DNA of 34,194 bases from a virus. The DNA lies in IMG/VR virus record IMGVR_UViG_3300023500_000016, positions 1 to 34,194 of that record; one strand, written 5' to 3'. Positions 1 to 25,327 of this stretch are shown one piece after another (within the stretch, counting starts at the first letter, position 1; every line of letters begins with the position of its first letter). The notes under the pieces were generated by a model that saw nothing but the letters and a program-made list of their open reading frames with translations, did not search any database and was not told the DNA's origin. A program made the translations under genes and the position numbers.

Positions 1-490
1 TTGGTAGGTCGTCGGTCGATCGGCGGTCGGTCGGTCGATCGGTATATTTTGGTAAATTTTATAGTATAGGGACATCCCCTATCGTCTATACGCCTGTAGA
101 CGATACAAATATAGCCGATCTTGCCATAGACGCGCCGTAGGCGTCGTGGTCGATAGCGCGCGCGTCCAGGTATAGCTATATAGGTCGGTCGCCGATCGTC
201 TAGTAGGCGCGAAATAGTCGGTAGATCGTAGTGGTAGGGGTAGGCTAGCCGATCGGTCTAGCGGGTAGATCGTCGAAAAGATTTTTAGATCGTCGGGTAG
301 GCGTAGGCGTAGGGGCATAGGGTAGGCTATACCGATACGGTATAGGTATAATATCTTGCTATATTTTGCTATATTTTGCTATTTTTTTCTTGACGTAGAT
401 GCCGAAAATACCGATACTCTAAATATAGAAACGATCGGGTAGCGTATCCGACCGACAGACGACCTAGACGACTATATAGGAAATAGAAAA
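1..490. other. Non-coding left edge, rich in GATC and short inverted repeats
   Basis: No convincing gene is seen here. The first 40 bases are the same GTCG/GATCG low-complexity type as at 1480-1740. An inverted repeat with 9-bp arms (80-88 and 97-105, TATCGTCTA/TAGACGATA) forms a strong hairpin. At 350-388 the 10-base unit TATTTTGCTA is repeated about three times and ends in a T run, just upstream of a promoter-like sequence. GATC is unusually dense. The stretch could be a leader, an origin-like region or spacer; the sequence does not decide. Confidence 0.6.
390..418 (+). promoter_or_regulatory. Sigma70-type promoter for the left plus-strand genes
   Basis: TTGACG at 390-395 and GATACT at 413-418 are separated by 17 bases. 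An AT-rich tract of TATTTTGCTA repeats lies directly upstream and could act as an UP element. It is the best promoter match before the first plus-strand gene (491). Confidence 0.5.
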
Positions 491-922
491 ATGAAACACG
501 AAAATGAAAACGATTTGACAAACTATACGATCGGCGCCGACGGGGTAGCTACGGTAGAAATCCCGGCCGATCTATCACCGTACGATTTGCGTACCTATCG
601 AAAATTGGGCGTGCTATCGTCGATTACTATAGCCGATTTATACCTGTCAACGGGCGGTGATAGAACTATAAAAATCCGACATATCCGCAATAGCATAAAA
701 CTTTACGATAGCAAATTATCGACGCGTGACGATATAGTCCGAAATTTAGGAAAAATGTCGCGGGACGTCACCGATTTTGGCGGAAATTTGCGGTTAGTCG
801 GATCGGACGCTGGCGACATAGCCGGCGTTCCTGGATTTGGTAGCCTACCGGCAAAATTAACGGATTTGGCCTGTCGGATCGACGCCGTCGCAAACTACGC
901 GGATCGTTTGTTTTCGTTCTAG
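491..922 (+). CDS. Hypothetical protein, first gene of the left module
   Basis: The 143-residue protein matches no family I recognise. It is soluble by appearance, with no membrane segment or signal peptide, and the C-terminal third is rich in Gly, Asp and Ala. The start is ATG at 491, with a modest AGGA about nine bases upstream and a good promoter at 390-418. It is the first gene of the plus-strand module. Its stop is followed by the first copy of the 44-bp GC-rich repeat (947-990). Codons rich in CGAT and CGG match the surrounding non-coding DNA, so the gene shares the unusual composition of this region. Function unknown. Confidence 0.65.
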   Translation: MKHENENDLTNYTIGADGVATVEIPADLSPYDLRTYRKLGVLSSITIADLYLSTGGDRTIKIRHIRNSIKLYDSKLSTRDDIVRNLGKMSRDVTDFGGNLRLVGSDAGDIAGVPGFGSLPAKLTDLACRIDAVANYADRLFSF

Positions 923-946
923 ACGCCTAGACGATCGACGCCGACT

Positions 947-990
947 GGCGTCGATCGTCGGTCGGGCATCCGCGCGATCGCGGGTATCCG
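947..990 (+). repeat. 44-bp GC-rich intergenic repeat, copy 1
   Basis: This copy is identical to 1425-1468, and 41 bases of it recur at 1738-1768 (31 bases) extended by the preceding low-complexity DNA. The core is the palindrome CGCGATCGCG. It sits directly after the gene ending at 922 and before the leader repeat, so intergenic spacers in this region are built from the same parts. Confidence 0.85.
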
Positions 991-1017
991 ATCGACGATC
1001 GACCGGATTAAAGTGCG

Positions 1018-1067
1018 ACCGGAACCCGAGGGTAGGCGGTATCCTGCCCCGAAAATTGGAGCCAAAA
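1018..1067 (+). repeat. 50-bp leader repeat with RBS, copy 1
   Basis: Bases 1018-1067 are identical to 1854-1903. The repeat runs from ACCGGAACCCGAGGG to the GGAG ribosome-binding site and GCCAAAA, and ends exactly at the start codon. The two genes it precedes (1068 and 1906) are unrelated in sequence, so only the leader was duplicated or exchanged. Confidence 0.9.
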
Positions 1068-1418
1068 ATGTGCGATTGTAAACTTACTGAAGGCGTTGAT
1101 AGCGGTATTTGTTCTGAATGTGTCGGTGACATTATCGTAGACGTAATTGAGCATTGGACCGACGAGAACCTGGGTGAATTCGTCGAAGACCATATTAGCG
1201 GAGTAATTGACCTTGACGTCATGGTCGAACTTGTCGAATCCTCAAAATCCGTCTTAGAATCTCAGATCGACGAGGCTATAGAATCAATTTCTAATAACGA
1301 AGATACGATTAGCGGGATGCAATCGGAGATCGAAGCTTTGCAATATGCCCTCGACGAGCTATCGGGTAGGCGTGTTGGCCAGGGCCTCCTTCACCGGGCG
1401 TTCCATTGGTTGTTATAG
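1068..1418 (+). CDS. Hypothetical acidic coiled-coil protein with Cys-rich N-terminal tag
   Basis: The 116-residue protein begins MCDCKLTEGVDSGICSEC, giving several closely spaced cysteines that could bind metal. Residues about 50-100 form an acidic helical stretch rich in Glu, Ser and Leu, likely a coiled coil. I chose ATG at 1068 because GGAG lies six bases upstream; an upstream in-frame TTG at 1056 lacks this. The first 16 codons and the RBS are nearly identical to those of the gene at 2393, while the rest of the two proteins is unrelated. The leader is shared instead with the gene at 1906. No family recognised. Confidence 0.65.
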   Translation: MCDCKLTEGVDSGICSECVGDIIVDVIEHWTDENLGEFVEDHISGVIDLDVMVELVESSKSVLESQIDEAIESISNNEDTISGMQSEIEALQYALDELSGRRVGQGLLHRAFHWLL

Positions 1419-1424
1419 TCGGTA

Positions 1425-1468
1425 GGCGTCGATCGTCGGTCGGGCATCCGCGCGATCGCGGGTATCCG
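1425..1468 (+). repeat. 44-bp GC-rich intergenic repeat, copy 2
   Basis: Identical to 947-990 and placed just after the stop codon at 1418. It continues into GTCGACGGGCG, which is also found after the third copy (1738-1768), so copies two and three share a longer stretch than copy one. The two copies bracket the low-complexity block. Confidence 0.85.
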
Positions 1469-1479
1469 GTCGACGGGCG

Positions 1480-1737
1480 TCTATCGTCGGTCGGTCGTCG
1501 GTCGTCGGTCGTCGGTCGATCGTCGATCGTCGGTCGGCGTCGGTCGTCGGTCGTCGGTCGATCGTCGATCGTCGGTCGGCGTCGGTCGTCGGTCGATCGT
1601 CGATCGTCGGTCGGCGTCGGTCGTCGGTCGTCGGTCGGCGTCGGTCGTCGGTCGGCGTCGGTCGTCGGTCGGCGTCGGTCGTCGGTCGTCGGTCGATCGT
1701 CGGTCGGCGTCGGTCGTCGGTCGTCGCCGTCGGCGCC
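1480..1737. repeat. GTCG/GGCGTCGGTC low-complexity satellite
   Basis: About 260 bases consist almost only of GTCG, GATC and GGCGTCGGTC words, such as GGCGTCGGTCGTCGGTC repeated many times. Units vary in length, so it is an irregular microsatellite-like tract and not a spacer-repeat array. Both strands are open over most of it, but the translations are Arg/Ser/Val or Arg/Pro/Thr repeats without any start signal, so I do not call a gene. It lies between two copies of the 44-bp repeat, suggesting expansion within a duplicated spacer. Confidence 0.9.
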
Positions 1738-1768
1738 GTCGATCGTCGGTCGGGCATCCGCGCGATCG
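1738..1768 (+). repeat. GC-rich intergenic repeat, copy 3 (right flank of satellite)
   Basis: This copy runs from GTCGATCGTCGG through CGCGCGATCGCGGG to the GGTATCCG end of the 44-bp repeat. It lies at the right edge of the low-complexity block and leads into the 16-bp tandem array and the second leader copy. Confidence 0.75.
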
Positions 1769-1789
1769 CGGGTATCCGGTCGACGGGCG

Positions 1790-1853
1790 ACCTGATTAAA
1801 GTGCGACCGGATTAAAGTGTTACCGGATTAAAGTGCGACCGGATTAAAGTGTT
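1790..1853 (+). repeat. Tandem array of four 16-bp units
   Basis: Units of ACCGGATTAAAGTG followed alternately by CG or TT occur at 1790-1805, 1806-1821, 1822-1837 and 1838-1853, with a T for G change in the first. The alternation shows that a 32-bp dimer was duplicated. A single unit stands at the equivalent place before copy 1 of the leader (about 1002-1017). It could be a binding-site array close to a gene start. Confidence 0.85.
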
Positions 1854-1903
1854 ACCGGAACCCGAGGGTAGGCGGTATCCTGCCCCGAAAATTGGAGCCA
1901 AAA
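1854..1903 (+). repeat. 50-bp leader repeat with RBS, copy 2
   Basis: Identical to 1018-1067. It supplies GGAG at 1894-1897 to the start codon at 1906. Here it is joined to a different gene start (the TATGTCCACTAAA motif) than in copy 1. Confidence 0.9.
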
Positions 1904-1905
1904 TT

Positions 1906-2298
1906 ATGTCCACTAAAAACGAAAACCTATCTGTTGAATCGTTAGCCGAAGGGGCCTTGCCTGTCGCCATACGGGGATACAATTCTCCAGACGTGTTCTT
2001 TGATACGATCATGGATTTCGCGCCACTAGACGATAGTTATGACGGCTACACGCTAGTGCGTTCCCGGTCGTGTGGGTGTGGTTATTTCTGGGTAGCGCGT
2101 AGCCTAGCATTTACGAAATTCTCGCCCGGTCTATACGCTAGCACGGGCGATGCGATCGACGATTATGAGGCTGATAGGCTCCCCCTGGTAAACATGCCTT
2201 TTATAGCTAGGGAGCTAACAGAAACAGAGATCGCTTTCCTGCTATCCGACGCCGCGGCCCTTTCGCTGCCGTCAGAACATTCTCAAGATATTTCCTAA
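1906..2298 (+). CDS. Hypothetical protein with MSTK start
   Basis: The 130-residue protein is not recognised. It contains a short RSCGCGYFWV segment near residue 55, the only cysteine cluster, and an acidic C-terminal half. The start is ATG at 1906, eight bases after GGAG; the codons MSTK are copy 1 of the 13-bp junction motif found at six places between 1.9 and 5.8 kb. Its leader is a perfect copy of that of the gene at 1068. No membrane segments. The gene downstream (2393) has its own promoter, so this one may end a short transcript. Confidence 0.65.
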   Translation: MSTKNENLSVESLAEGALPVAIRGYNSPDVFFDTIMDFAPLDDSYDGYTLVRSRSCGCGYFWVARSLAFTKFSPGLYASTGDAIDDYEADRLPLVNMPFIARELTETEIAFLLSDAAALSLPSEHSQDIS

Positions 2299-2305
2299 TT
2301 CTTGC

Positions 2306-2334
2306 TTGACTTACTGTATCAGTAAGGCTACTAT
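2306..2334 (+). promoter_or_regulatory. Strong promoter with palindromic operator in the spacer
   Basis: TTGACT (2306-2311) and TACTAT (2329-2334) are spaced by 17 bases, close to the sigma70 consensus. The spacer contains a perfect inverted repeat CTTACTG-TAT-CAGTAAG at 2310-2326, placed so that a bound dimer would block RNA polymerase. It drives the gene starting at 2393. The regulator is not identified. Confidence 0.65.
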
Positions 2335-2392
2335 TGTATTGTTGTGATTGAAAAATGATTTGATTTTCTTGTCTATTGAAAAGGAGCCAAAA

Positions 2393-3166
2393 ATGTGCGA
2401 TTGTAAACTTACTGAAGGCGTTGATAGCTGTATTTGTTCTATAGACGCACACAACCCACCGCTTGAACCAAAAATGAGGGACTGCCCCAACACGATCGAC
2501 AAGGTCGATGTGACGAGCATGACAGATGCCGTCATTATCGCGCACGCCAAGGGCAGGTTGAGCAATGCCAACCTATTGGCCATATGTTGCGAAGCAAACG
2601 GTTGCCAGATCGATTATGATACGCTAGTCAACACGAGTAACTGCGTCAAATACCAGTGCGATAAAATAGACAAACTTGTCGCATGGAAGACAACAACCAA
2701 TCTAAGTGAATCGCAGTTGGATGATTGGGACGCTGCAATGAGTGCCGGCATGGCCGACAACGACGTATATGATGGCGACTGGTGTAACGCGATAGATGAT
2801 TGTTGTGAGTTAATCGCCGACTGGGGTTTTCCGGCCGAAGACCACACCTGCCTCGGCACAAAATTCGCCTCCGTTCTGGAATCGTTCGGAGGCGTCAATC
2901 AGATCGCCAAAGAGATAAAGGCGAAATCGGCCAGCCTAGAATTTTACTGCGTAGACGTCGACCTGAGCGACACCGGGTTGTGCGACATACGCCTGCGATG
3001 GCTGGGGGATCTGCTAGAGCTATATTCTGGCCCGCCTTGCTATGATCTGGACCACCGCGGGTATTGGGCTGCGTCGTCTGTAGGGGAGTGCTTTTCTGAT
3101 GACGAATGCATGTTCTTGGCGGAGGATCTTGTCGATCAGATCTCCCTAGCGATCTCTAACGGGTAG
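2393..3166 (+). CDS. Hypothetical cysteine-rich acidic protein
   Basis: The 257-residue protein is the largest of the left module and has no recognised domain. It carries about 20 cysteines and many Asp residues. It begins with MCDCKLTEGVDSCICS, the tag shared with the gene at 1068, and a second RBS-less copy of the CCAAAAATG start lies about 30 residues in (EPKMRDC). ATG at 2393 is preceded by AAGGAG six bases upstream. It has its own promoter and operator at 2306-2334. The stop is followed by the 47-bp hairpin repeat. Function unknown; metal binding is only a guess from the cysteines. Confidence 0.7.
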   Translation: MCDCKLTEGVDSCICSIDAHNPPLEPKMRDCPNTIDKVDVTSMTDAVIIAHAKGRLSNANLLAICCEANGCQIDYDTLVNTSNCVKYQCDKIDKLVAWKTTTNLSESQLDDWDAAMSAGMADNDVYDGDWCNAIDDCCELIADWGFPAEDHTCLGTKFASVLESFGGVNQIAKEIKAKSASLEFYCVDVDLSDTGLCDIRLRWLGDLLELYSGPPCYDLDHRGYWAASSVGECFSDDECMFLAEDLVDQISLAISNG

Positions 3167-3177
3167 GCATACATTTT

Positions 3178-3224
3178 TGGCTCGCCCTTTGGCCATCGGC
3201 TCGCGCCGGTGGCCTTAGGCAGTG
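3178..3224 (+). repeat. 47-bp hairpin repeat, copy 1
   Basis: Nearly identical (one mismatch) to 4451-4497. Bases 3191-3214 fold into a 10-bp stem (GGCCATCGGC/GCCGGTGGCC) with a TCGC loop. No T run follows, so it is not a typical intrinsic terminator; it may stabilise or process the mRNA. Confidence 0.85.
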
Positions 3225-3258
3225 GAAGTTTGTGTCATCGAAAATAGGAGGTATTATT

Positions 3259-3642
3259 ATGTCCACTAGATGTTGTTTCAAATTCTCTGACGATTCTTGC
3301 GAGGTATCAGTATACAAACATTATGATGGGCATCCCATCAACGCCTACCAATGTATACTCAAGGCGATCCCATACGCTTGGCCGCTTCCGCGGTATGAGG
3401 CTTACGACTTTGCCGCCGCCTTCATCGCTGCGAACAAAATGATCGGAGGCGGGGATATATACGTCTCGTCTGGAGTGCATTGTGATCTTGATTACTGGTA
3501 TAGGGTAGGCGTCGTGGCGTGCCGCGGCCTAACGGGCATCCAGTCTTTGCACGTCGAGGCTCGTAGGGATAACGAATGCGGAAGCATTATCTATGCTGGC
3601 TGCCTCGAGGAGTTCGGTAGGCTGTCAAAGAATATGGAGTAG
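3259..3642 (+). CDS. Conserved phage-type protein with STRC...VYxHYDGxP signature
   Basis: The 127-residue protein opens with MSTRCCFKF, then VYKHYDGHPINAYQC near residues 18-34. This N-terminal layout (beta strand, then VYxHxDGxP) resembles small hypothetical proteins I associate with phages and genomic islands; no activity is known to me. A strong AGGAGG lies seven bases before ATG 3259. The start codons overlap the second copy of the 13-bp junction motif, here with ACTAGA instead of ACTAAA. It lies between two unrelated genes and is followed by a new promoter. Confidence 0.75.
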   Translation: MSTRCCFKFSDDSCEVSVYKHYDGHPINAYQCILKAIPYAWPLPRYEAYDFAAAFIAANKMIGGGDIYVSSGVHCDLDYWYRVGVVACRGLTGIQSLHVEARRDNECGSIIYAGCLEEFGRLSKNME

Positions 3643-3645
3643 TTA

Positions 3646-3674
3646 TCGACACACTGAAAATTCGATGTTATTAT
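3646..3674 (+). promoter_or_regulatory. Possible promoter ending at the junction motif
   Basis: TCGACA at 3646-3651 and TATTAT at 3669-3674 are 17 bases apart, and the -10 box abuts the junction motif TTTGTCCACTAAA (3674-3686). It would serve the gene at 3700. Confidence 0.4.
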
Positions 3675-3699
3675 TTGTCCACTAAATTTGGAGACCAAG

Positions 3700-4116
3700 A
3701 TGCCAGAAGAATCTAAGACTTACGAATGTAGCGTATGCAATAGCGTTCAACTAGAAGGCGTGCCGTGCCTTTGTGCTAGCGGTGCAATATCTAGCGAGAT
3801 CGACCACGGACTCCGAGGTAGATTCGCTCGCAACAACAAATACTTTCAGGTCACGCGTGAGATGGGCGGCATGGCTTTACTATATATTCACACCCGATCT
3901 TTCTACTCTATCGTAAGGCGAAGCGAGGGCGGCTCGGCTTACTATGACTTCTCCCGGCGTGTATACAGATCTTATGGCGAGGCCCTCGAGGCAATGAACC
4001 TGTGCCAAAATATAGACTGGGCTCATGACTTCCCTTTCGACTTCGATGCGGAGGTGTGCCCTAACTATCTTGGTGGGTTCTTCGACCACCTCCAGGACCT
4101 TATGCCTACAGATTGA
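3700..4116 (+). CDS. Hypothetical protein with N-terminal zinc-ribbon-like cysteines
   Basis: The 138-residue protein begins with a knuckle-like region: Cys at YECSVC, then VPCLC, a CxxC...CxC layout that could hold zinc. The spacing recalls the MCDCKLTEGV...ICS tag of the genes at 1068 and 2393 (LEGV then CLC), so the three N-termini may be distantly related. The remainder is rich in Tyr, Arg and Phe and unrecognised. Start ATG 3700 has GGAG six bases upstream. The junction motif lies just upstream, where an abandoned MSTK-type start (TTG at 3676) opens a 13-codon remnant. Confidence 0.65.
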   Translation: MPEESKTYECSVCNSVQLEGVPCLCASGAISSEIDHGLRGRFARNNKYFQVTREMGGMALLYIHTRSFYSIVRRSEGGSAYYDFSRRVYRSYGEALEAMNLCQNIDWAHDFPFDFDAEVCPNYLGGFFDHLQDLMPTD

Positions 4117-4164
4117 CGTCGAAATTTACCCCTATAATTATGTCCACTAAAAAGGAACGCAAAG

Positions 4165-4443
4165 ATGAGATTTGAAAGTACCATAAAATTGTGCGATCTT
4201 CGCGATTGGTATCTCATGCAATGCGAACACCATATATACGCAGACCGTGTCGGCCTTTGGGGGAAGACGTGGATCTTATCTCGATGGAATGACGTCTCAA
4301 AATCCTGGCACAAGATACCCCTATCCAGCGGAACCGACGAGCACGGCGCATATTGCAAATCTCTCGGCATCTGCGAGGATGTGCTAGCTCTGCCTCGCAA
4401 CGCAACGCAGCGCTACGTTTCTGACGTTCTGTGTGCCAAATAG
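4165..4443 (+). CDS. Hypothetical small protein
   Basis: The 92-residue protein contains several Trp and Cys residues and no recognised domain or membrane segment. ATG 4165 is preceded by AAGGA eight bases upstream. A TATAAT sequence (4133-4138) directly abuts the junction motif at 4139-4151, whose ATG opens an 11-codon remnant reading MSTKKERKDEI that overlaps this gene's start codon in another frame. This looks like an old gene start whose body was replaced. The stop is followed by copy 2 of the 47-bp hairpin repeat. Confidence 0.6.
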   Translation: MRFESTIKLCDLRDWYLMQCEHHIYADRVGLWGKTWILSRWNDVSKSWHKIPLSSGTDEHGAYCKSLGICEDVLALPRNATQRYVSDVLCAK

Positions 4444-4450
4444 ATATTTC

Positions 4451-4497
4451 TGGCTCGTCCTTTGGCCATCGGCTCGCGCCGGTGGCCTTAGGCAGTG
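4451..4497 (+). repeat. 47-bp hairpin repeat, copy 2
   Basis: Copy of 3178-3224 with one substitution. The 10-bp stem with TCGC loop is at 4464-4487. Like copy 1 it follows a stop codon within about a dozen bases. Confidence 0.85.
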
Positions 4498-4564
4498 TAA
4501 GGTGGTTCGTACAACATGCCGCGGGCATTATTGGCGAATACCAGACATAGCAAAGGAGCGTTCA

Positions 4565-4948
4565 ATGTCAGCCGTTATAGTCAAGCGAGTCGAGGTCATA
4601 GGTACGAATGTGGTCACCTATACTGCCTGGGAGCCTGGTAAAATGCATGGCACTCACACCCACATTACACACATAGGAGAGGATTGTTATGGGGATATTG
4701 GCTGCCGCGTATTACCTGACGCGATCCAAAGCATGCCCAGCCATAGCTCCGCCAGGGTTGCCGCCGTTCGGAAGTTCTTCGGAGACTCCTACATGGAGGC
4801 GGTCACGGAAATTATCGAAGCGTTCCCGGAGGTTGGCGAGGGTAATTGCCTGTACCATATCGGCCAGATAACTGCCTACGAGGAGACGAGGTGGTGCCTC
4901 GCAGACGGAACAAAGAAAGCATGCGTGGCTGGTGAAATTTCGGAGTAA
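4565..4948 (+). CDS. Hypothetical protein, last gene of the plus-strand module
   Basis: The 127-residue protein starts MSAVIVKRVEV with an AAAGGAG six bases upstream of ATG 4565; longer forms from upstream would run through the hairpin repeat and lack an RBS. A His/Thr-rich stretch (HGTHTHITHIGED near residues 24-36) is the most distinctive part and could bind metal, but no family is recognised. Its stop codon abuts the stop codon of the methyltransferase on the other strand without any gap, so the two transcription units converge here with no visible terminator. Confidence 0.65.
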   Translation: MSAVIVKRVEVIGTNVVTYTAWEPGKMHGTHTHITHIGEDCYGDIGCRVLPDAIQSMPSHSSARVAAVRKFFGDSYMEAVTEIIEAFPEVGEGNCLYHIGQITAYEETRWCLADGTKKACVAGEISE

Positions 4949-5719
4949 TTAATTATCCACTAAATTCTCGATGGTGAGCTGCTCCGGCTTGTGCGTGGCG
5001 AACAGTGGGCCGTCTTGGGAATCCAGGATGGCCTCTGTTATTCGGGAGATAGCGGTTTCATAATGGTGCCTGTCCTTTTCTATGCCGACGAACGATCTGC
5101 CTAGATTGACACATGCCACCCCGGTCGAGCCGCTCCCCATGAAAGGATCAAGGATCGTGTCTGATGTGTGGTTGCCTATTATTCGCTCCATCAGCCTGAC
5201 TGGTTTCTGTGTTGGATGGTATTTATTGCTCGCATCGCGAGGCATCTCCCATAACGTGCATTCGTTAGATGGACCGCACCACATGAGGTTGCCGCCCTTG
5301 GCCTTGCAATACACGAGCGGTTCGTAACGGTTCTTGTATTGGGCACCCATGGCTGCGTATTTTGCGTTGGTTTTGTGCCATATGATCAAGGCGTGGACTT
5401 GTCCGTTCGCCTCGTCTATAGACTTGAACACCTCCAACGTTTTGCTGGTAGAATAGAACAAGTAGACAGGTCCTTTGCATAGGCGAAACAATGGATTCAT
5501 CACCCTCGAATACACATCCTCCTTGTCACCTTCTAGTGGCCTCGTTTTTCTTTGTATTGCCACATCTCCGCTGTGGAAGTGGCCTCCCTCATATGCCACG
5601 CCGTATGGTGGATCAGAGACGACTGCCTCTATTGTGCCCTCTAGGTGCGGGAACACGTCGAAGCAGTCGGCGTGGTAAAGCCTTATCCTGTACTTGTCAT
5701 CAGACCAGCTAGCATACAT
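4949..5719 (-). CDS. DNA methyltransferase, beta class (N6-adenine or N4-cytosine)
   Basis: The 256-residue enzyme has motif IV SDPPYG at residues 35-40 and the SAM-binding motif I DPFMGSGSTG at 191-200, an order (IV before I) that marks the beta class of amino-methyltransferases. HPTQKPVRLMERII before motif I is also typical. ATG 5719 fits the domain start; longer forms lack a better RBS and would overlap the next gene. It modifies host or phage DNA, possibly against restriction. No cognate nuclease is present, so it is an orphan. Both ends carry the TATGTCCACTAAA-type motif in plus orientation, although the gene is on the minus strand. Target site cannot be told from sequence; GATC, so dense to the left, is one candidate. 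Confidence 0.9.
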   Translation of the reverse strand: MYASWSDDKYRIRLYHADCFDVFPHLEGTIEAVVSDPPYGVAYEGGHFHSGDVAIQRKTRPLEGDKEDVYSRVMNPLFRLCKGPVYLFYSTSKTLEVFKSIDEANGQVHALIIWHKTNAKYAAMGAQYKNRYEPLVYCKAKGGNLMWCGPSNECTLWEMPRDASNKYHPTQKPVRLMERIIGNHTSDTILDPFMGSGSTGVACVNLGRSFVGIEKDRHHYETAISRITEAILDSQDGPLFATHKPEQLTIENLVDN

Positions 5720-5737
5720 GGAATTTGCCCCTGATTG

Positions 5738-5750
5738 TATGTCCACTAAA
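5738..5750 (+). repeat. TATGTCCACTAAA junction motif (one of six)
   Basis: Copies lie at 1905-1917, 3258-3270 (one change), 3674-3686 (one change), 4139-4151, 4954-4964 (two bases missing) and 5738-5750. All are in the plus orientation and all lie at a gene boundary. The two at the methyltransferase ends extend into ACTAAATYCTCGA, a direct repeat around the gene. Confidence 0.85.
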
Positions 5751-5762
5751 TCCTCGAACCTA

Positions 5763-6026
5763 TTACACTTCGAACAACTTTTCTTGTTCGCCGTCCTTCG
5801 CCGACTCGACCACGGACTTGGCCAGCTCTCCATCTAAGAGTCTTACGGCAGAGAAGTATGCCGTTGTGTATATCTCGCACACTGTGCCCGGTGTCACCTC
5901 GCTATCGTTCTCGAGAATCTCAGCGAGAAGGCCATCACGCATATCCAATCTCACCATTTCCACCTTTTCTTTTGTGCTTAGATCGTTCCATTTTACAGAG
6001 TCATTTTTAGTTGTCTTGCTAGCCAT
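5763..6026 (-). CDS. Hypothetical small acidic protein
   Basis: The 87-residue protein is charged and mostly helical by appearance, with LSTKEKVEMVRLDMRDGL as its most regular part. No family is recognised and there is no membrane segment. GAGGG lies six bases before ATG 6026. It overlaps the end of the VRR-NUC gene by eight bases, so the two are translationally coupled, and it ends 43 bases before the methyltransferase. Confidence 0.7.
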   Translation of the reverse strand: MASKTTKNDSVKWNDLSTKEKVEMVRLDMRDGLLAEILENDSEVTPGTVCEIYTTAYFSAVRLLDGELAKSVVESAKDGEQEKLFEV

Positions 6027-6354
6027 CCTGGCCCTCCTTGGTTTTCGTTATAGCCTCTATTCTCTCTATTACCTCGTCTATGCTCCATGCTGCGAACGCC
6101 ACCCCTCCATGGGAGCTTATCATATCCATGAATTCCCACTGGTCTTTGCTGGGCTTGTTCTTTCCGACTTTGAGCTCGATTGATAGCCATCTCCCGCCTG
6201 GCAGTATGCCCAGAATGTCGCCGGAGCCCTTCGAGCCATACCTTATCCATCCATTCCCTCTTTTGTATGCACCAGTATTGTTGCGGAAGCATGGTATTCC
6301 TACCAATCTCAACCACTGCAATGTCACTCGGACAAGATCAGATTCTTGTGTCAT
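6019..6354 (-). CDS. VRR-NUC domain nuclease
   Basis: The 111-residue protein shows the core of the VRR-NUC branch of the PD-(D/E)XK nucleases: GSGDILG with Asp46, then a strand with SIELKVG giving Glu60 and Lys62, then Gln72. Stand-alone VRR-NUC proteins of this size are frequent in phage replication blocks and act on branched or flapped DNA; this role is inferred. The start overlaps the upstream ASCH gene by ATGA. It lies in the run of small early genes downstream of the primase and helicase. Confidence 0.85.
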   Translation of the reverse strand: MTQESDLVRVTLQWLRLVGIPCFRNNTGAYKRGNGWIRYGSKGSGDILGILPGGRWLSIELKVGKNKPSKDQWEFMDMISSHGGVAFAAWSIDEVIERIEAITKTKEGQDG

Positions 6355-6875
6355 GCTTTTTCAATCTCCGCTACGAACACCCAGGGGTTCGTATGCCACA
6401 AGTGTTCTGGGTTATCTTGGTTCCATGTCGTGAAGTTTAAGCCATCATTTTCATGTGACGAATCTGAAAGCCTTTCAACTAGCACGCCTAGTATCTTGAT
6501 TCTCAACCTTGCGTATTCAAAGGGCATACTATCTGCTGGAAGCCACTCGAACCCACTCTCTCTCAACCATTCTTCATCCGCTTTCGATGCTTTAGTTTTA
6601 TAGTGAATACTCCCTATACCGTCTTCGGTATCAATCCATTCTTCTCTGATTCGTAGTACATCACCCGGCTTGCCGAAGGGGGCTGAAGGGTGGCCATGTT
6701 TCTCGATATATTCAGAAATATATCGTATTCCAACCCTACAACGATACGTCCCTACAAAGTGGCCGCCACCGTCCCATTCGTCGTCCATTACTGGCTGCGG
6801 ATCAACCACTCTACGCAGTTGCGTAATCGTGCCTGATTCGATGCCGTCTCTTTCATGTTTGGTTAGGGTTAGCAT
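6351..6875 (-). CDS. ASCH-domain protein
   Basis: The 174-residue protein begins with LTLTKHERDGIESGTITQLR, matching the start of phage ASCH proteins (ILxGxKTQTRR), followed by VVDPQP, GKPGDVLRIREEW and the late PWVFVAEIE strand. ASCH domains have a PUA-like beta-barrel and are thought to bind RNA or modified nucleotides. The usual KTxTRR motif is changed to TITQLRR, so a binding residue may be lost. AAAAGGA precedes the ATG by about nine bases. It overlaps both neighbours by a few bases. Confidence 0.75.
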   Translation of the reverse strand: MLTLTKHERDGIESGTITQLRRVVDPQPVMDDEWDGGGHFVGTYRCRVGIRYISEYIEKHGHPSAPFGKPGDVLRIREEWIDTEDGIGSIHYKTKASKADEEWLRESGFEWLPADSMPFEYARLRIKILGVLVERLSDSSHENDGLNFTTWNQDNPEHLWHTNPWVFVAEIEKA

Positions 6876-7126
6876 TGCAACCCATCCTTTTCGTCGTATA
6901 TCTGGTCTCTAACTTCGGCCCGGCATTGTGATTGGCACTTAATCTCATCGAGCAGCCTATCACACTTCCCCTCTAGCACTTCGTTGCGCAGCCTGAGGCG
7001 TTTGATTTCAACTATCAAATCTCTTATGTCGTTTTCATATCTCTCGCATAGGTTAGGCGTAGTACCTGCCCTTCTGTTCTTGGATACCATTTCGTCTAAT
7101 CTTTCATCACTTAGTGGTCCAATCAT
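6869..7126 (-). CDS. Hypothetical coiled-coil protein
   Basis: From ATG 7126 the 85-residue protein contains a long charged helix (IRDLIVEIKRLRLRNEVLEG), likely a coiled coil, and C-terminal cysteines. AAGGTG lies eight bases before ATG 7126. A longer form from ATG 7222 would overlap the stop of the upstream gene and has only a distant GAGG; I prefer the shorter start but cannot exclude the longer. No family recognised. Confidence 0.6.
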   Translation of the reverse strand: MIGPLSDERLDEMVSKNRRAGTTPNLCERYENDIRDLIVEIKRLRLRNEVLEGKCDRLLDEIKCQSQCRAEVRDQIYDEKDGLQC

Positions 7127-7215
7127 ATCTTGCACACCTTTATGTCTTGTCCATGCTGCACAACTTAACTTCGGAAAGTTGGCTCTTATACGCACTGGCC
7201 ACTGTATTAAAATCT

Positions 7216-7467
7216 TTAACATTCATTAGTTTTCCTCTCTCTTTCCCACGCCATTAGCAATCGACATGCGGCGTGTAGTAGGTGGTCTTCGGTTGTGTCG
7301 CCATTGTAGTGTTTATCTAAATGGTTTTGAGCACGGAGCCTATGAGTTAACATGTCCAACTCCACCCACTGATCGCCATGCGTAACAAACCCGTTCTCCA
7401 GCAGGCAATGTACAGCATGTAACGCTAAGCCGGGCATCTGCATATCTTCTGTAGTCTTGTCAGTCAT
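7216..7467 (-). CDS. Hypothetical small protein with HLLHAA motif
   Basis: The 83-residue protein ends with a helix reading DHLLHAACRLLMAWERE. A histidine pair in such a helix is reminiscent of small phage proteins of the nucleotide-pyrophosphohydrolase-like type (DUF5664-like), but the match is weak and I would not assign an activity. A strong GGGGAGG lies five bases before the ATG. It sits between two other unrecognised small early genes. Confidence 0.65.
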   Translation of the reverse strand: MTDKTTEDMQMPGLALHAVHCLLENGFVTHGDQWVELDMLTHRLRAQNHLDKHYNGDTTEDHLLHAACRLLMAWERERKTNEC

Positions 7468-7478
7468 TTTGTCCTCCC

Positions 7479-8042
7479 CTAATTAACATACAGCGAAGGA
7501 AGGCTCTGGGTATTGAATGACGCCATCGAAGGGCCAGTCGCCTTGCACAACTCAATCGCCCGATCCAACTCATACTTCATTTCTATCAGCTTTCTACTCA
7601 CCTTCTCGCGCCATATGCCCATTGCTTTTTTGAGCAAGAACGGAAACTCATCCAATTCTTCGCCCCATCGTGCCAGGATGTATTTCTCTCCATACCAGCC
7701 AGCTTTAGACCCAATCAGAACAGGGTCTTTCTCGTAGGCTTCTGGGTACATGACATACAACTCCTTGAAGTATTCGTCAGCCAGCGAGGCCACTTCCAAC
7801 ACACGAAGCGGAATCGGAGAATCCTTATAATCCTTAACCAGACAATGAACAGGGCATATGGTGGAATAGACCGCATGTTCCTGTTTGGTGATTTTCCGGT
7901 AAGGGAATCGAATCGTTTCGTCATCACCGCTCAAATCCTTCTGCCCATCAAGACCCAACTTTTCGATAATAGCATTAGCTTGGTCGCAATGCTCCATCGT
8001 TTCATTCGCCACTTCATCAATCGTAAATGTTTCAACTTTCAT
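7479..8042 (-). CDS. Hypothetical protein
   Basis: The 187-residue protein is soluble by appearance and mixed helix and strand. It contains a His/Cys patch around residue 60 (STICPVHCL) and a mostly helical C-terminal half. No family is recognised. AAAGGA precedes ATG 8042 and the start overlaps the upstream gene by ATGA, so it is coupled to it. Confidence 0.7.
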   Translation of the reverse strand: MKVETFTIDEVANETMEHCDQANAIIEKLGLDGQKDLSGDDETIRFPYRKITKQEHAVYSTICPVHCLVKDYKDSPIPLRVLEVASLADEYFKELYVMYPEAYEKDPVLIGSKAGWYGEKYILARWGEELDEFPFLLKKAMGIWREKVSRKLIEMKYELDRAIELCKATGPSMASFNTQSLPSLYVN

Positions 8043-8489: not shown

Positions 8490-8497
8490 TTCGTTAT

Positions 8498-8568
8498 TAC
8501 CCGCACCAGAAATCGAACCTGAGTCATCCCGATTGCAAATCGAGACTCTGCCACTGAGCTATGCGGGC
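8498..8568 (-). tRNA. tRNA, probably Ala (anticodon TGC)
   Basis: Seventy-one bases fold as a cloverleaf: acceptor GCCCGCA/TGCGGGT with a terminal G-T pair, D arm GCTC/GAGT, anticodon stem CTCGA/TCGGG with loop TTTGCAA, and a T arm with the usual GGTTCGATT loop. The loop places TGC at 34-36, hence Ala. Position 26 is missing and the T stem closes with a G-T pair. If the stem were shifted by one base the anticodon would read GCA (Cys), but pairing is then poor. CCA is not encoded. Confidence 0.75.
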
Positions 8569-8630
8569 AAAATGCGGCTTATTTATCGTGGACACCGCAA
8601 AACCACGTCCTGGGAAAGGATACCTCACAT

Positions 8631-9488: not shown

Positions 9489-11167
9489 CTTCGACGCCTC
9501 CACCCGTTCCGGCTTAACTCACCCATCGCTGCACCCGCCTCAGCCCTTGTCATTTCGTTTGCGTTTTCATAACCGCATGACTTCAACCTTTTAACCTGTT
9601 TGTATGTTGCCATACCAGCGTCCCTTCGACGAAACAAATCAGACAAAAGCGCGGAAGCAATTGCCTTGGTTGCCCCATTCATTTTGGATGCTTCAACTCC
9701 AAATCTTTCCAATGCCGCAATCTGCCTGGGTGTTGCTAGGCTTTGTGGATCTCTACTGCCACCAAAATCCCTGGGTGCTTCAATCGCCAACACATCAAAG
9801 GGGTTCACTTTGCCTATTCTGTATTTTGCTTGACCCTTAACAACGCTGCGGCGATTCTTTGCTTTTTCTTCTGCAATTCTCATGCGTTCTTTTTCTGCAA
9901 TAATCTCGTCATTCGCATCTGCAAGCATCGTCATCATGTCGACGGCATTGCCTAGCTTCTTGGTTTTTCTTTTGGCGCGTTCAATAACATCATCATCGTA
10001 ATCACCACCAAGAATATCACTCGTTGTAACTAACTTGTGTCTTCCAGAATTACCAACAAAATCGAGGATCAATGCAGACGACTTTCCACTAGACGCAATA
10101 GCGTCCTTTCGTCCTTCTGCTGTTTGTGGCCCATCCACAACTCCAGGCAACGGCCTAGTACCTCGACCTACCATCTGAGTGTATAAACTCCGCGATTTTG
10201 TCGGCCTTGCTATAGCAACAATTTCAATTGATGGCACGTCGAATCCCTCAGTGCATACCCCAACATTCACGAGAAATTGAAAGTCACCTGAATCAAACCC
10301 TTTCATTATTCCCTTTCGGGCCTCTGTCTCAGTCTTTCCGGTTACCACCATTGCCGAATTTTTCTTGTGGCGGTTGAAGATTTCGGACATTCGCTCGGCC
10401 TGCATGACTGTCACGGCAAAAACAAGCGTTTTCCTTCCAGCAGCAATTTCTATTGTTGGACCAACAACTTCATGCAGATTGTTTTCCTCGACCATTATTT
10501 CGCCGAGTTCTTTGGCATTTAAGTCGCCAGCCGTGGTCTTACATTTTGAAAAATCAAGGGATTCAACATCAACAAGCTGCTGCTCAATCGGAACAAGCCA
10601 CCCGTCGGTGATTGCTTCGGTCATCGCATAGCTATAAGGTGCTTCATCAAATACCTTACCAAGTGCTGCAGTATCCGCACGATCTGGCGTAGCAGTAACA
10701 CCAAGCACTTTCAAGTTGGGGTTGGTGCGATAATAATTAATCACATTACGATATGTTTTTGACGTTGCGTGATGCGCTTCATCAATGATCAGTAGAACAA
10801 ATTCAAATGGATCAAACCTCTGCATTCTGCCACCAAGCCGTCCAGCGTTTTGGGTTTGAACCGATGATACTACAACATTAGATTTCTGGAATAAACTCGT
10901 TTCATTTGACCATGAATCTGCTTTTTCTAGTGAACAGTGCTCACCTGAAACGAGTTTGATTTTGCTCATCGCCTGCGATAGCAATTCATCGCGATGGGCA
11001 ATCACTATAGCGCGACCCCCTTTTTTTATCATCTGATCTAATACATGCGAAAATACGATCGTCTTCCCGCAGCCAGTCGGCATAACTATGAGTGCTGCAG
11101 GTGTCCCGCGATCATAGCATTCTAAAGTTTTATCTATTGCATCCTGCTGATAAGGTCGTGGTTTCAT
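9482..11167 (-). CDS. Superfamily 2 DNA helicase (DEAH type)
   Basis: About 561 residues with all core SF2 motifs: Walker A MPTGCGKT (29-36), DEAH (129-132), VTATPDRADT (motif III area), and QMVGRGTRP (motif VI) after the CTEGFD strand. It resembles the type III restriction/RecQ-like phage helicases that unwind DNA at the fork. The last ~80 residues hold a repeated TPRQIAALERFG and TYKQVKRLKSCG pattern, likely two copies of a small DNA-binding fold. ATG 11167 follows GGGAG by nine bases; TTG/ATG at 11188-11191 are weaker. It is coupled to the primase downstream. Confidence 0.9.
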   Translation of the reverse strand: MKPRPYQQDAIDKTLECYDRGTPAALIVMPTGCGKTIVFSHVLDQMIKKGGRAIVIAHRDELLSQAMSKIKLVSGEHCSLEKADSWSNETSLFQKSNVVVSSVQTQNAGRLGGRMQRFDPFEFVLLIIDEAHHATSKTYRNVINYYRTNPNLKVLGVTATPDRADTAALGKVFDEAPYSYAMTEAITDGWLVPIEQQLVDVESLDFSKCKTTAGDLNAKELGEIMVEENNLHEVVGPTIEIAAGRKTLVFAVTVMQAERMSEIFNRHKKNSAMVVTGKTETEARKGIMKGFDSGDFQFLVNVGVCTEGFDVPSIEIVAIARPTKSRSLYTQMVGRGTRPLPGVVDGPQTAEGRKDAIASSGKSSALILDFVGNSGRHKLVTTSDILGGDYDDDVIERAKRKTKKLGNAVDMMTMLADANDEIIAEKERMRIAEEKAKNRRSVVKGQAKYRIGKVNPFDVLAIEAPRDFGGSRDPQSLATPRQIAALERFGVEASKMNGATKAIASALLSDLFRRRDAGMATYKQVKRLKSCGYENANEMTRAEAGAAMGELSRNGWRRRRW

Positions 11168-11939
11168 GCCATTGCTCTCCCGCTGCATCAATTTTCATTT
11201 TTGTCAACCATCCCTGTTTGTTGCAAGCCTTGCAGCCATCCTGGCCGCAATATGGGCAAGGACCGTACGGCATTGCAATTCTGATATTGCCACGCACGTT
11301 TTTCAAATCAATGTCGAGTCGATTCCAATTTATATGTGCACCAAGCGGGCTTTCGCATAGCACTTTGGCCAGTGCCTTCGCTTTGGCAATGTGAGATAGT
11401 ATTTCATTAAACTTTGTCTTATTATTGATCGCTTCTGCCACCCACTCAGATAGCTCGCCCTTTTTGAGCAGCTTCAGCCGTGGCCTTTCCTGTTTCCCCG
11501 AAGGTTTTTGATCATTAATTTTTCTGACAACACTTTTGACCAGCTGACCAGTAACCTGCGGCTTACCGTTTTTTTGTGGTGCAACCTCAACAACCGCCTT
11601 CCACGCTTCAGCTTGCTTAGCTGCCGGCAACTTTGCGAGTTCTCTTGCCTGTCTTTCATTGGGTTCTGGCGCATTTGGTAACCCATGGGTTACTTTTTGC
11701 GAACTCGCAACCTGTTTAATCACGTCGAAAGCCTTAATTTTTCGGTAAACATGTTGTTTGGTCATGTGCCATTTTTGCGTACAGTATTGGTCAAACGTGT
11801 TGAATTCATCCTTATATAGTCCTTTTTGCTTAATCACTGTGAGCGCGCCCGCAACATCCATAAATCCAGACAATCCAACGTCTATAATTTTTTCAAGTGC
11901 AGCTTTTTCCTGTGCTTTTTCGATTGAAAATATCTTCAT
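11130..11939 (-). CDS. ParB-like/replication DNA-binding protein with zinc ribbon
   Basis: About 269 residues. Residues 25-85 (GALTVIKQKGLYKDEFNTFDQYC then MTKQHVYRKIKAF) fit a helix-turn-helix region seen in phage and plasmid proteins often annotated ParB-like or replication initiator. A GLPNAPEPNERQARELAKL linker and a Lys-rich segment follow, then a C-terminal CPYCGQDGCKACNKQGW zinc ribbon. AAAGGAG lies nine bases before ATG 11939. It precedes and overlaps the helicase, so it may load it at an origin (inference). The 16-bp palindrome shared with two intergenic sites lies within its codons (11678-11693). Confidence 0.7.
   Translation of the reverse strand: MKIFSIEKAQEKAALEKIIDVGLSGFMDVAGALTVIKQKGLYKDEFNTFDQYCTQKWHMTKQHVYRKIKAFDVIKQVASSQKVTHGLPNAPEPNERQARELAKLPAAKQAEAWKAVVEVAPQKNGKPQVTGQLVKSVVRKINDQKPSGKQERPRLKLLKKGELSEWVAEAINNKTKFNEILSHIAKAKALAKVLCESPLGAHINWNRLDIDLKNVRGNIRIAMPYGPCPYCGQDGCKACNKQGWLTKMKIDAAGEQWHETTTLSAGCNR
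11678..11693. repeat. Dispersed palindrome GTAACCCATGGGTTAC, copy inside a gene
   Basis: A perfect 16-bp palindrome followed by a T run on the plus strand. It recurs at 15421-15438 and 25310-25327, both extended to 18 bp as AGTAACCCATGGGTTACT and also followed by T runs. Confidence 0.9.
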
Positions 11940-12011
11940 TTGATCGTACTCCTTTAATTTGTGGGCGCAGCCCGGCTTATATCCGTGCATACCTCCCTAG
12001 CTGGGGGCATC

Positions 12012-15420: not shown

Positions 15421-15438
15421 AGTAACCCATGGGTTACT
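15421..15438. promoter_or_regulatory. 18-bp perfect palindrome AGTAACCCATGGGTTACT, candidate operator
   Basis: It lies between the stop of the ribbon-helix-helix gene (15446) and the start of the membrane protein gene (15403). The same palindrome occurs at 25310-25327 and, as a 16-bp core, at 11678-11693. Binding by a dimeric repressor is the simplest reading; the neighbouring small DNA-binding protein is a candidate. Confidence 0.6.
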
Positions 15439-25309: not shown

Positions 25310-25327
25310 AGTAACCCATGGGTTACT
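25310..25327. promoter_or_regulatory. 18-bp perfect palindrome AGTAACCCATGGGTTACT, candidate operator
   Basis: Sits four bases after the stop of the major tail protein and about 37 bases before the chaperone start. Identical to the copy at 15421-15438. As an RNA it could form a hairpin with a CATG loop, but no T run follows on the transcribed strand. Confidence 0.55.

Follow-up and report, generated by a model that had tools for sequence, protein, structure and literature searches.

Within the analyzed window of 34,194 nucleotides, ready-made expression starts composed of a hairpin, 16-bp repeats, a leader, a ribosome binding site (RBS) and, in one case, 16 codons are joined to different gene bodies of the same genome, in line with the ready-made starts proposed in the preceding sequence-only reading. 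The best explanation, to which a probability of about 60% is assigned, is that regulatory cassettes were copied by recombination and reused within a region of early or accessory genes in a phage of siphovirus-like type.

Gene content of the window

The window represents a complete IMG/VR record that is classed as linear and is therefore possibly a fragment; its longest open reading frame (ORF) comprises at most 569 amino acids, and the record may be incomplete. Genes encoding terminase subunits, portal, protease, major head protein, tape measure, major tail protein, helicase, a primase-like protein and a RecE-like exonuclease were located on the minus strand from approximately 5 kb to the right end. 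Judged by its head, tape-measure, terminase and RecE-like families, the phage appears siphovirus-like. The left 4.9 kb harbor eight small ORFs on the plus strand, for which no credible Pfam, PHROG or NCBIfam assignment was obtained. They include the gene at 1068–1418 (g1068), encoding a small acidic protein predicted to be helical, the gene at 2393–3166 (g2393), encoding a cysteine-rich protein of 257 amino acids, and the ORFs at 1906–2298, 3259–3642, 3700–4116, 4165–4443 and 4565–4948. An adjacent DNA methyltransferase gene (N6_N4_Mtase; 4949–5719, likely start ATG at 5719) is encoded on the minus strand. Third-position G+C contents of the eight small ORFs (0.50–0.61) match those of the adjoining minus-strand genes up to 8 kb (0.54–0.61), so that the small ORFs do not represent foreign DNA attached at 4.9 kb; genes inspected beyond 8 kb had values of 0.36–0.44. 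Elsewhere in the window, a tRNA-Ala (TGC) gene is located at 8497–8569 on the minus strand. Moreover, the operator-like palindrome AGTAACCCATGGGTTACT, expected 0.01 times, occurs in three copies, one of them with a mismatch (11677–11694, 15421–15438 and 25310–25327); two are intergenic and one lies within the ORF 11130–11990.

Repeated leaders, hairpins and gene starts

The 50-bp leader at 1018–1067 is identical to the sequence at 1854–1903 on the same (plus) strand, confirming the earlier observation over the full length, whereas the longest exact repeat in the shuffled region averaged 11.9 bp and reached 16 bp at maximum. The leader carries the RBS GGAG and a small hairpin with a 7-bp stem (z-score −0.9), and the promoter scan listed no promoter-like hexamers in it. 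It closes, on the 3' side, a longer duplicated unit in which a hairpin (949–1000 ahead of the first leader, 1737–1787 ahead of the second) is followed by 16-bp repeats (GACCGGATTAAAGTGC), namely a single copy at 1001–1016 ahead of the first leader and four tandem copies at 1789–1852 ahead of the second. The same hairpin element, which forms a strong stem-loop at 949–1000 after the gene 491–922 (RNA fold −35.5 kcal/mol, z-score −4.7), is also present at 1427–1475 after g1068. Furthermore, a 61-bp hairpin element was found behind two more genes, at 3173–3233 (z-score −3.8) and, with 92% identity, at 4446–4506 (z-score −3.4), all on the plus strand. RNA folding of the post-gene hairpins yielded z-scores of −3.4 to −4.7 for three copies and of −1.9 and −2.0 for the other two; the hairpins lack a T-run and are absent from the terminator scan list. 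Promoter-like −35/−10 hexamers with the palindrome CTTACTGTATCAGTAAG in their spacer were located at 2306–2334 on the plus strand. A GTCG/ATCG low-complexity array extends from 1476 to 1740 (plus strand). The contig start (1–45) resembles this array, so a repeat of this type may be where assembly ended. In addition, the first 1.9 kb are exceptionally rich in CGATCG, the first 2 kb containing 21 of the 29 copies that were counted across the window, and Rfam yielded below-gathering-score matches alone, located in GTCG-rich sequence.

A second repeated unit consists of an RBS and a 16-codon tag. The sequence-only reading had described this 58-bp block as recurring with one change, and its plus-strand copies at 1058–1115 (MCDCKLTEGVDSGICS) and 2383–2440 (MCDCKLTEGVDSCICS) indeed match at 57 of 58 positions. 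The single difference is nonsynonymous (G13C) and adds a cysteine, and zero synonymous differences were counted over the 48 coding bases. That the two copies agree in the RBS and do not differ at any synonymous site argues for recent copying of DNA. When 51 gene-start sequences, one of which was entered twice, were compared pairwise (1275 comparisons), the pair 1068/2393 stood out with a score of 37/44, whereas the pair 1906/3259 (28/44) barely exceeds the next pairs (27/44). The tagged bodies were likewise correctly described as unrelated, given that no similarity of the proteins behind the repeated starts was detectable beyond the first 16 residues. Breakpoints of the joins between repeated starts and gene bodies are located at or near the start codon.

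Inside g2393, a weaker in-frame copy of the tag start was identified at 2465–2484 on the plus strand (GAACCAAAAATGAGGGACTG, translated LEPKMRDC), being identical at 16 of 20 positions. Its ATG at 2474 follows the ATG at 2393 by 81 bases and is thus placed just downstream of the second tag copy. The score of this copy was reached by 3 of 1000 random sequences of 100 bp and by 24 of 1000 over 760 bp. With this modest statistical support, it is probably the decayed remnant of an earlier start resembling the tag start.

The suggestion that the tag is a functional N-terminal signal marking small effectors, e.g., for metal binding, virion packaging or targeting, could draw on its composition, since 16 residues including three to four cysteines are common to the otherwise unrelated proteins g1068 and g2393. 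However, only two of the eight small proteins carry the tag, the RBS and all synonymous sites are conserved to the same degree as the residues, and the sole change adds a cysteine. Moreover, the tag is of low confidence and without secondary structure in the single-sequence structure model of g1068, the model of g2393 being uninformative, and the second presumed tag, MSTK, is not a protein tag (see below). A common N-terminal signal is accordingly considered very improbable, and this part of the earlier interpretation is not supported.

Local partial duplication without gene exchange was also considered, in which an expression block of hairpin, repeat and leader and a gene start were duplicated within this phage and the downstream part diverged or was replaced by point changes and deletions. 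All copies reside within 1.4 kb and, as far as searched, in this genome only, and the 16-bp repeats were clearly expanded in place. On the other hand, no residual similarity is left in the bodies despite identities of 100% between the leaders and 98% between the tags, so that divergence would need a sharp break just past the start. Duplication of this kind is regarded as a rather unlikely alternative to copying by recombination.

A 31-bp bipartite site at gene junctions

The short N-terminal motif MSTK of gene 1906 returns as MSTR in gene 3259, as had been noted previously, but it is not a shared protein tag. Instead, both starts are part of a 31-bp bipartite DNA site, whose columns conserved among six copies comprise GAAAWTT approximately 22 bases upstream of the core and TTATGTCCACTARA. 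Copies at 1885–1918 and 3238–3271 overlap the start codons of genes 1906 and 3259, respectively. In two intergenic copies (3654–3687 and 4119–4152), the 14-nt core begins 27 bases upstream of the start codons at 3700 and 4165, whereas the remaining two mark the 3' end (4932–4965, a variant) and the 5' end (5718–5751) of the opposite-strand methyltransferase gene. Since four of the six sites lie away from start codons, MSTK/MSTR results from the translation of a DNA site and does not constitute a protein signal.

All six sites are placed at gene junctions between 1.9 and 5.8 kb and on the plus strand. Within positions 1–6100, TCCACTARA was counted six times on the plus strand, compared to 0.025 expected occurrences, and not at all on the minus strand. 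A weight matrix built from five sites ranked all six at the top across the whole 34-kb window, the sixth site, left out of the matrix, scoring 24.7 bits and the next best position 19.5 bits. Three of the six sites have promoter-like hexamers in register, and a −10-like TATWAT occurs at three sites; the −35-like hexamers are weak and restricted to three sites. Based on these features, the bipartite site is probably a promoter/operator; the position of two of the six sites at the flanks of an opposite-strand gene counts against a simple promoter. A T7/T3-like promoter reading of TTATGTCCACTAAA, which recalls AATTAACCCTCACTAAAG, was set aside: promoters of the T7 family are located upstream of RBS and start codon, whereas the sites at 1906 and 3259 overlap the start codon downstream of the RBS. 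With regard to the single-subunit RNA polymerase gene that would accompany such promoters, the possibly incomplete record has no ORF longer than 569 amino acids.

The sites could also serve as recombination sites for gene cassettes instead of having a regulatory function. In favor of such a role, each of them delimits one or two genes, and copies with similar flanks (TCCACTAAATYCTCGA) are present at both ends of the opposite-strand methyltransferase gene. No inverted-repeat core is apparent, however, and the TATWAT elements as well as the identical spacing from two start codons are consistent with a promoter, making a recombination-site function unlikely. An arrangement in which one 31-bp site per junction and reusable RBS/start blocks permit in-frame swapping of anti-host gene bodies, opposite-strand genes included, is likewise considered unlikely.

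Finally, the order of part of the region could have been altered by short-read assembly, given the low-complexity array and repeats of 50–170 bp. That the assembler joined short repeats wrongly is conceivable from these repeats, the GTCG array and the similar low-complexity sequence in which the contig begins. Yet the reading frames stay open across the tag joins and are preceded by good RBS, and the six bipartite sites are diverged copies and not identical k-mers. An artefact as the source of the observed pattern is therefore rated as highly doubtful.

Relatives and comparable repeat systems

Searches of IMG/VR, INPHARED, GTDB and PLSDB, each performed with some of the leader, tag and protein queries, revealed no relative. 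In IMG/VR, a 24-mer of the leader, the degenerate tag and the core of the 61-bp hairpin element gave zero matches each, the helicase and g2393 queries were without relatives, and the degenerate tag also had zero matches among GTDB genomes. The sequence AATTATGTCCACTAAA was found in 11 IMG/VR contigs, none of which has context in common with the window, and these were taken as chance matches. The helicase detected Bacteroidetes loci in GTDB genomes at 26–29% identity only. Nucleotide searches (blastn) of positions 1–8000 against phages and 1–5000 against plasmids, as well as phage searches with six of the eight small protein sequences, returned no matches. The terminase query identified one IMG/VR contig of 11.7 kb from another sample, with the best segment 100% identical and all 566 residues matched; this contig covers only the terminase end of the record.

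The earlier statement that no such system is known has to be corrected, since Start-Associated Sequences (SAS) of cluster K mycobacteriophages, PeSL cassettes of T4-like phages and cluster O repeats are documented. SAS are short asymmetric, RBS-containing repeats that immediately precede the start codons of genes unrelated to each other, are restricted to the non-structural portion of the genome and almost always share one orientation; about half of them are extended by an upstream inverted repeat and a SigA-like putative promoter to a block of approximately 47–50 bp (ESAS) (Pope et al. 2011, PMC3203893; PMC11373665). The repeats described here resemble SAS in being RBS-containing, just upstream of the starts of unrelated genes, in one orientation and in a non-structural region. 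They differ in that three starts are concerned, compared to 11–19 per cluster K genome, in that copying passes the start codon by up to 16 codons, in the tandem 16-bp repeats of the upstream part, and in the additional presence of the 31-bp site at the ends of an opposite-strand gene. The 13-bp SAS consensus GGGATAGGAGCCC was not found near starts with up to two mismatches; matches with three mismatches occurred at chance level only, none of them within 1–6100.

PeSL of T4-like phages combine a stem-loop and a promoter between small genes and were proposed to mediate module shuffling (Arbiol 2010 and Comeau 2014, as cited in PMC4503421). As far as they are described there, they are resembled by the stem-loops found here; promoter-like hexamers, as putative promoters, occur at three of the six bipartite sites. 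Unlike the PeSL-carrying phages, the present phage is not T4-like, its head, tape-measure, terminase and RecE-like families being indicative of a siphovirus-like phage. Cluster O mycobacteriophages possess palindromic intergenic repeats of 17 bp that have no link to start codons; in addition, some genes lie between short direct repeats in one genome where others contain a single copy, indicative of gene gain or loss at such repeats (PMC4351075). The present repeats are likewise intergenic, but they are linked to starts and known from one genome only. In archaeal viruses, highly similar regulatory DNA with a TATA/BRE promoter precedes small dissimilar early or anti-defence genes (PMC11065993); sharing that runs into the coding sequence, as observed here, is not described in that study. 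Stoperators of cluster A mycobacteriophages are asymmetric intergenic sites of approximately 13 bp, present in several copies, whose orientation follows transcription (PMC9283540), whereas two of the six sites studied here (4932–4965 and 5718–5751) oppose the adjacent methyltransferase gene. Start-linked repeats before unrelated genes thus are of a known kind; what looks new is the copying into the coding sequence and the 31-bp site bordering an opposite-strand gene.

According to the proposed model of cassette reuse, the left 5.8 kb would constitute an early region or an accessory ('moron'-like) one, whose short orphan genes, occurring in several cases singly and in some as pairs, are kept apart by repeated regulatory DNA. 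The 16-bp direct repeats and the leader with its hairpin and RBS would be parts of a regulatory cassette, the 31-bp site, at times overlapping the start codon, a probable promoter/operator, and the stem-loops after several genes candidates for terminators or RNA-processing sites. Recombination is proposed to pair short identical stretches at RBS/start positions and to replace or insert gene bodies, so that cassette copies come to precede unrelated genes; the RecE-like exonuclease of the phage possibly assists this process. The shared N-termini would then be a by-product of copying that extends a few codons into the gene. From these sequence features, we infer that the elements act as promoters/operators and terminators, that recombination is the cause and that the genes are expressed early, as well as any role in counter-defence, and exchange between phages is suggested by a single genome.

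The results add a case in which regulatory DNA recurs ahead of unrelated orphan genes, probably in a phage that belongs neither to the mycobacteriophages nor to the T4-like phages. Here, the copied stretch reaches into the coding region, and an older start seems to persist within a gene. If confirmed, the 31-bp site could help to locate early or counter-defence genes in phages related to this one, similar to the use of regulatory motifs in archaeal viruses.
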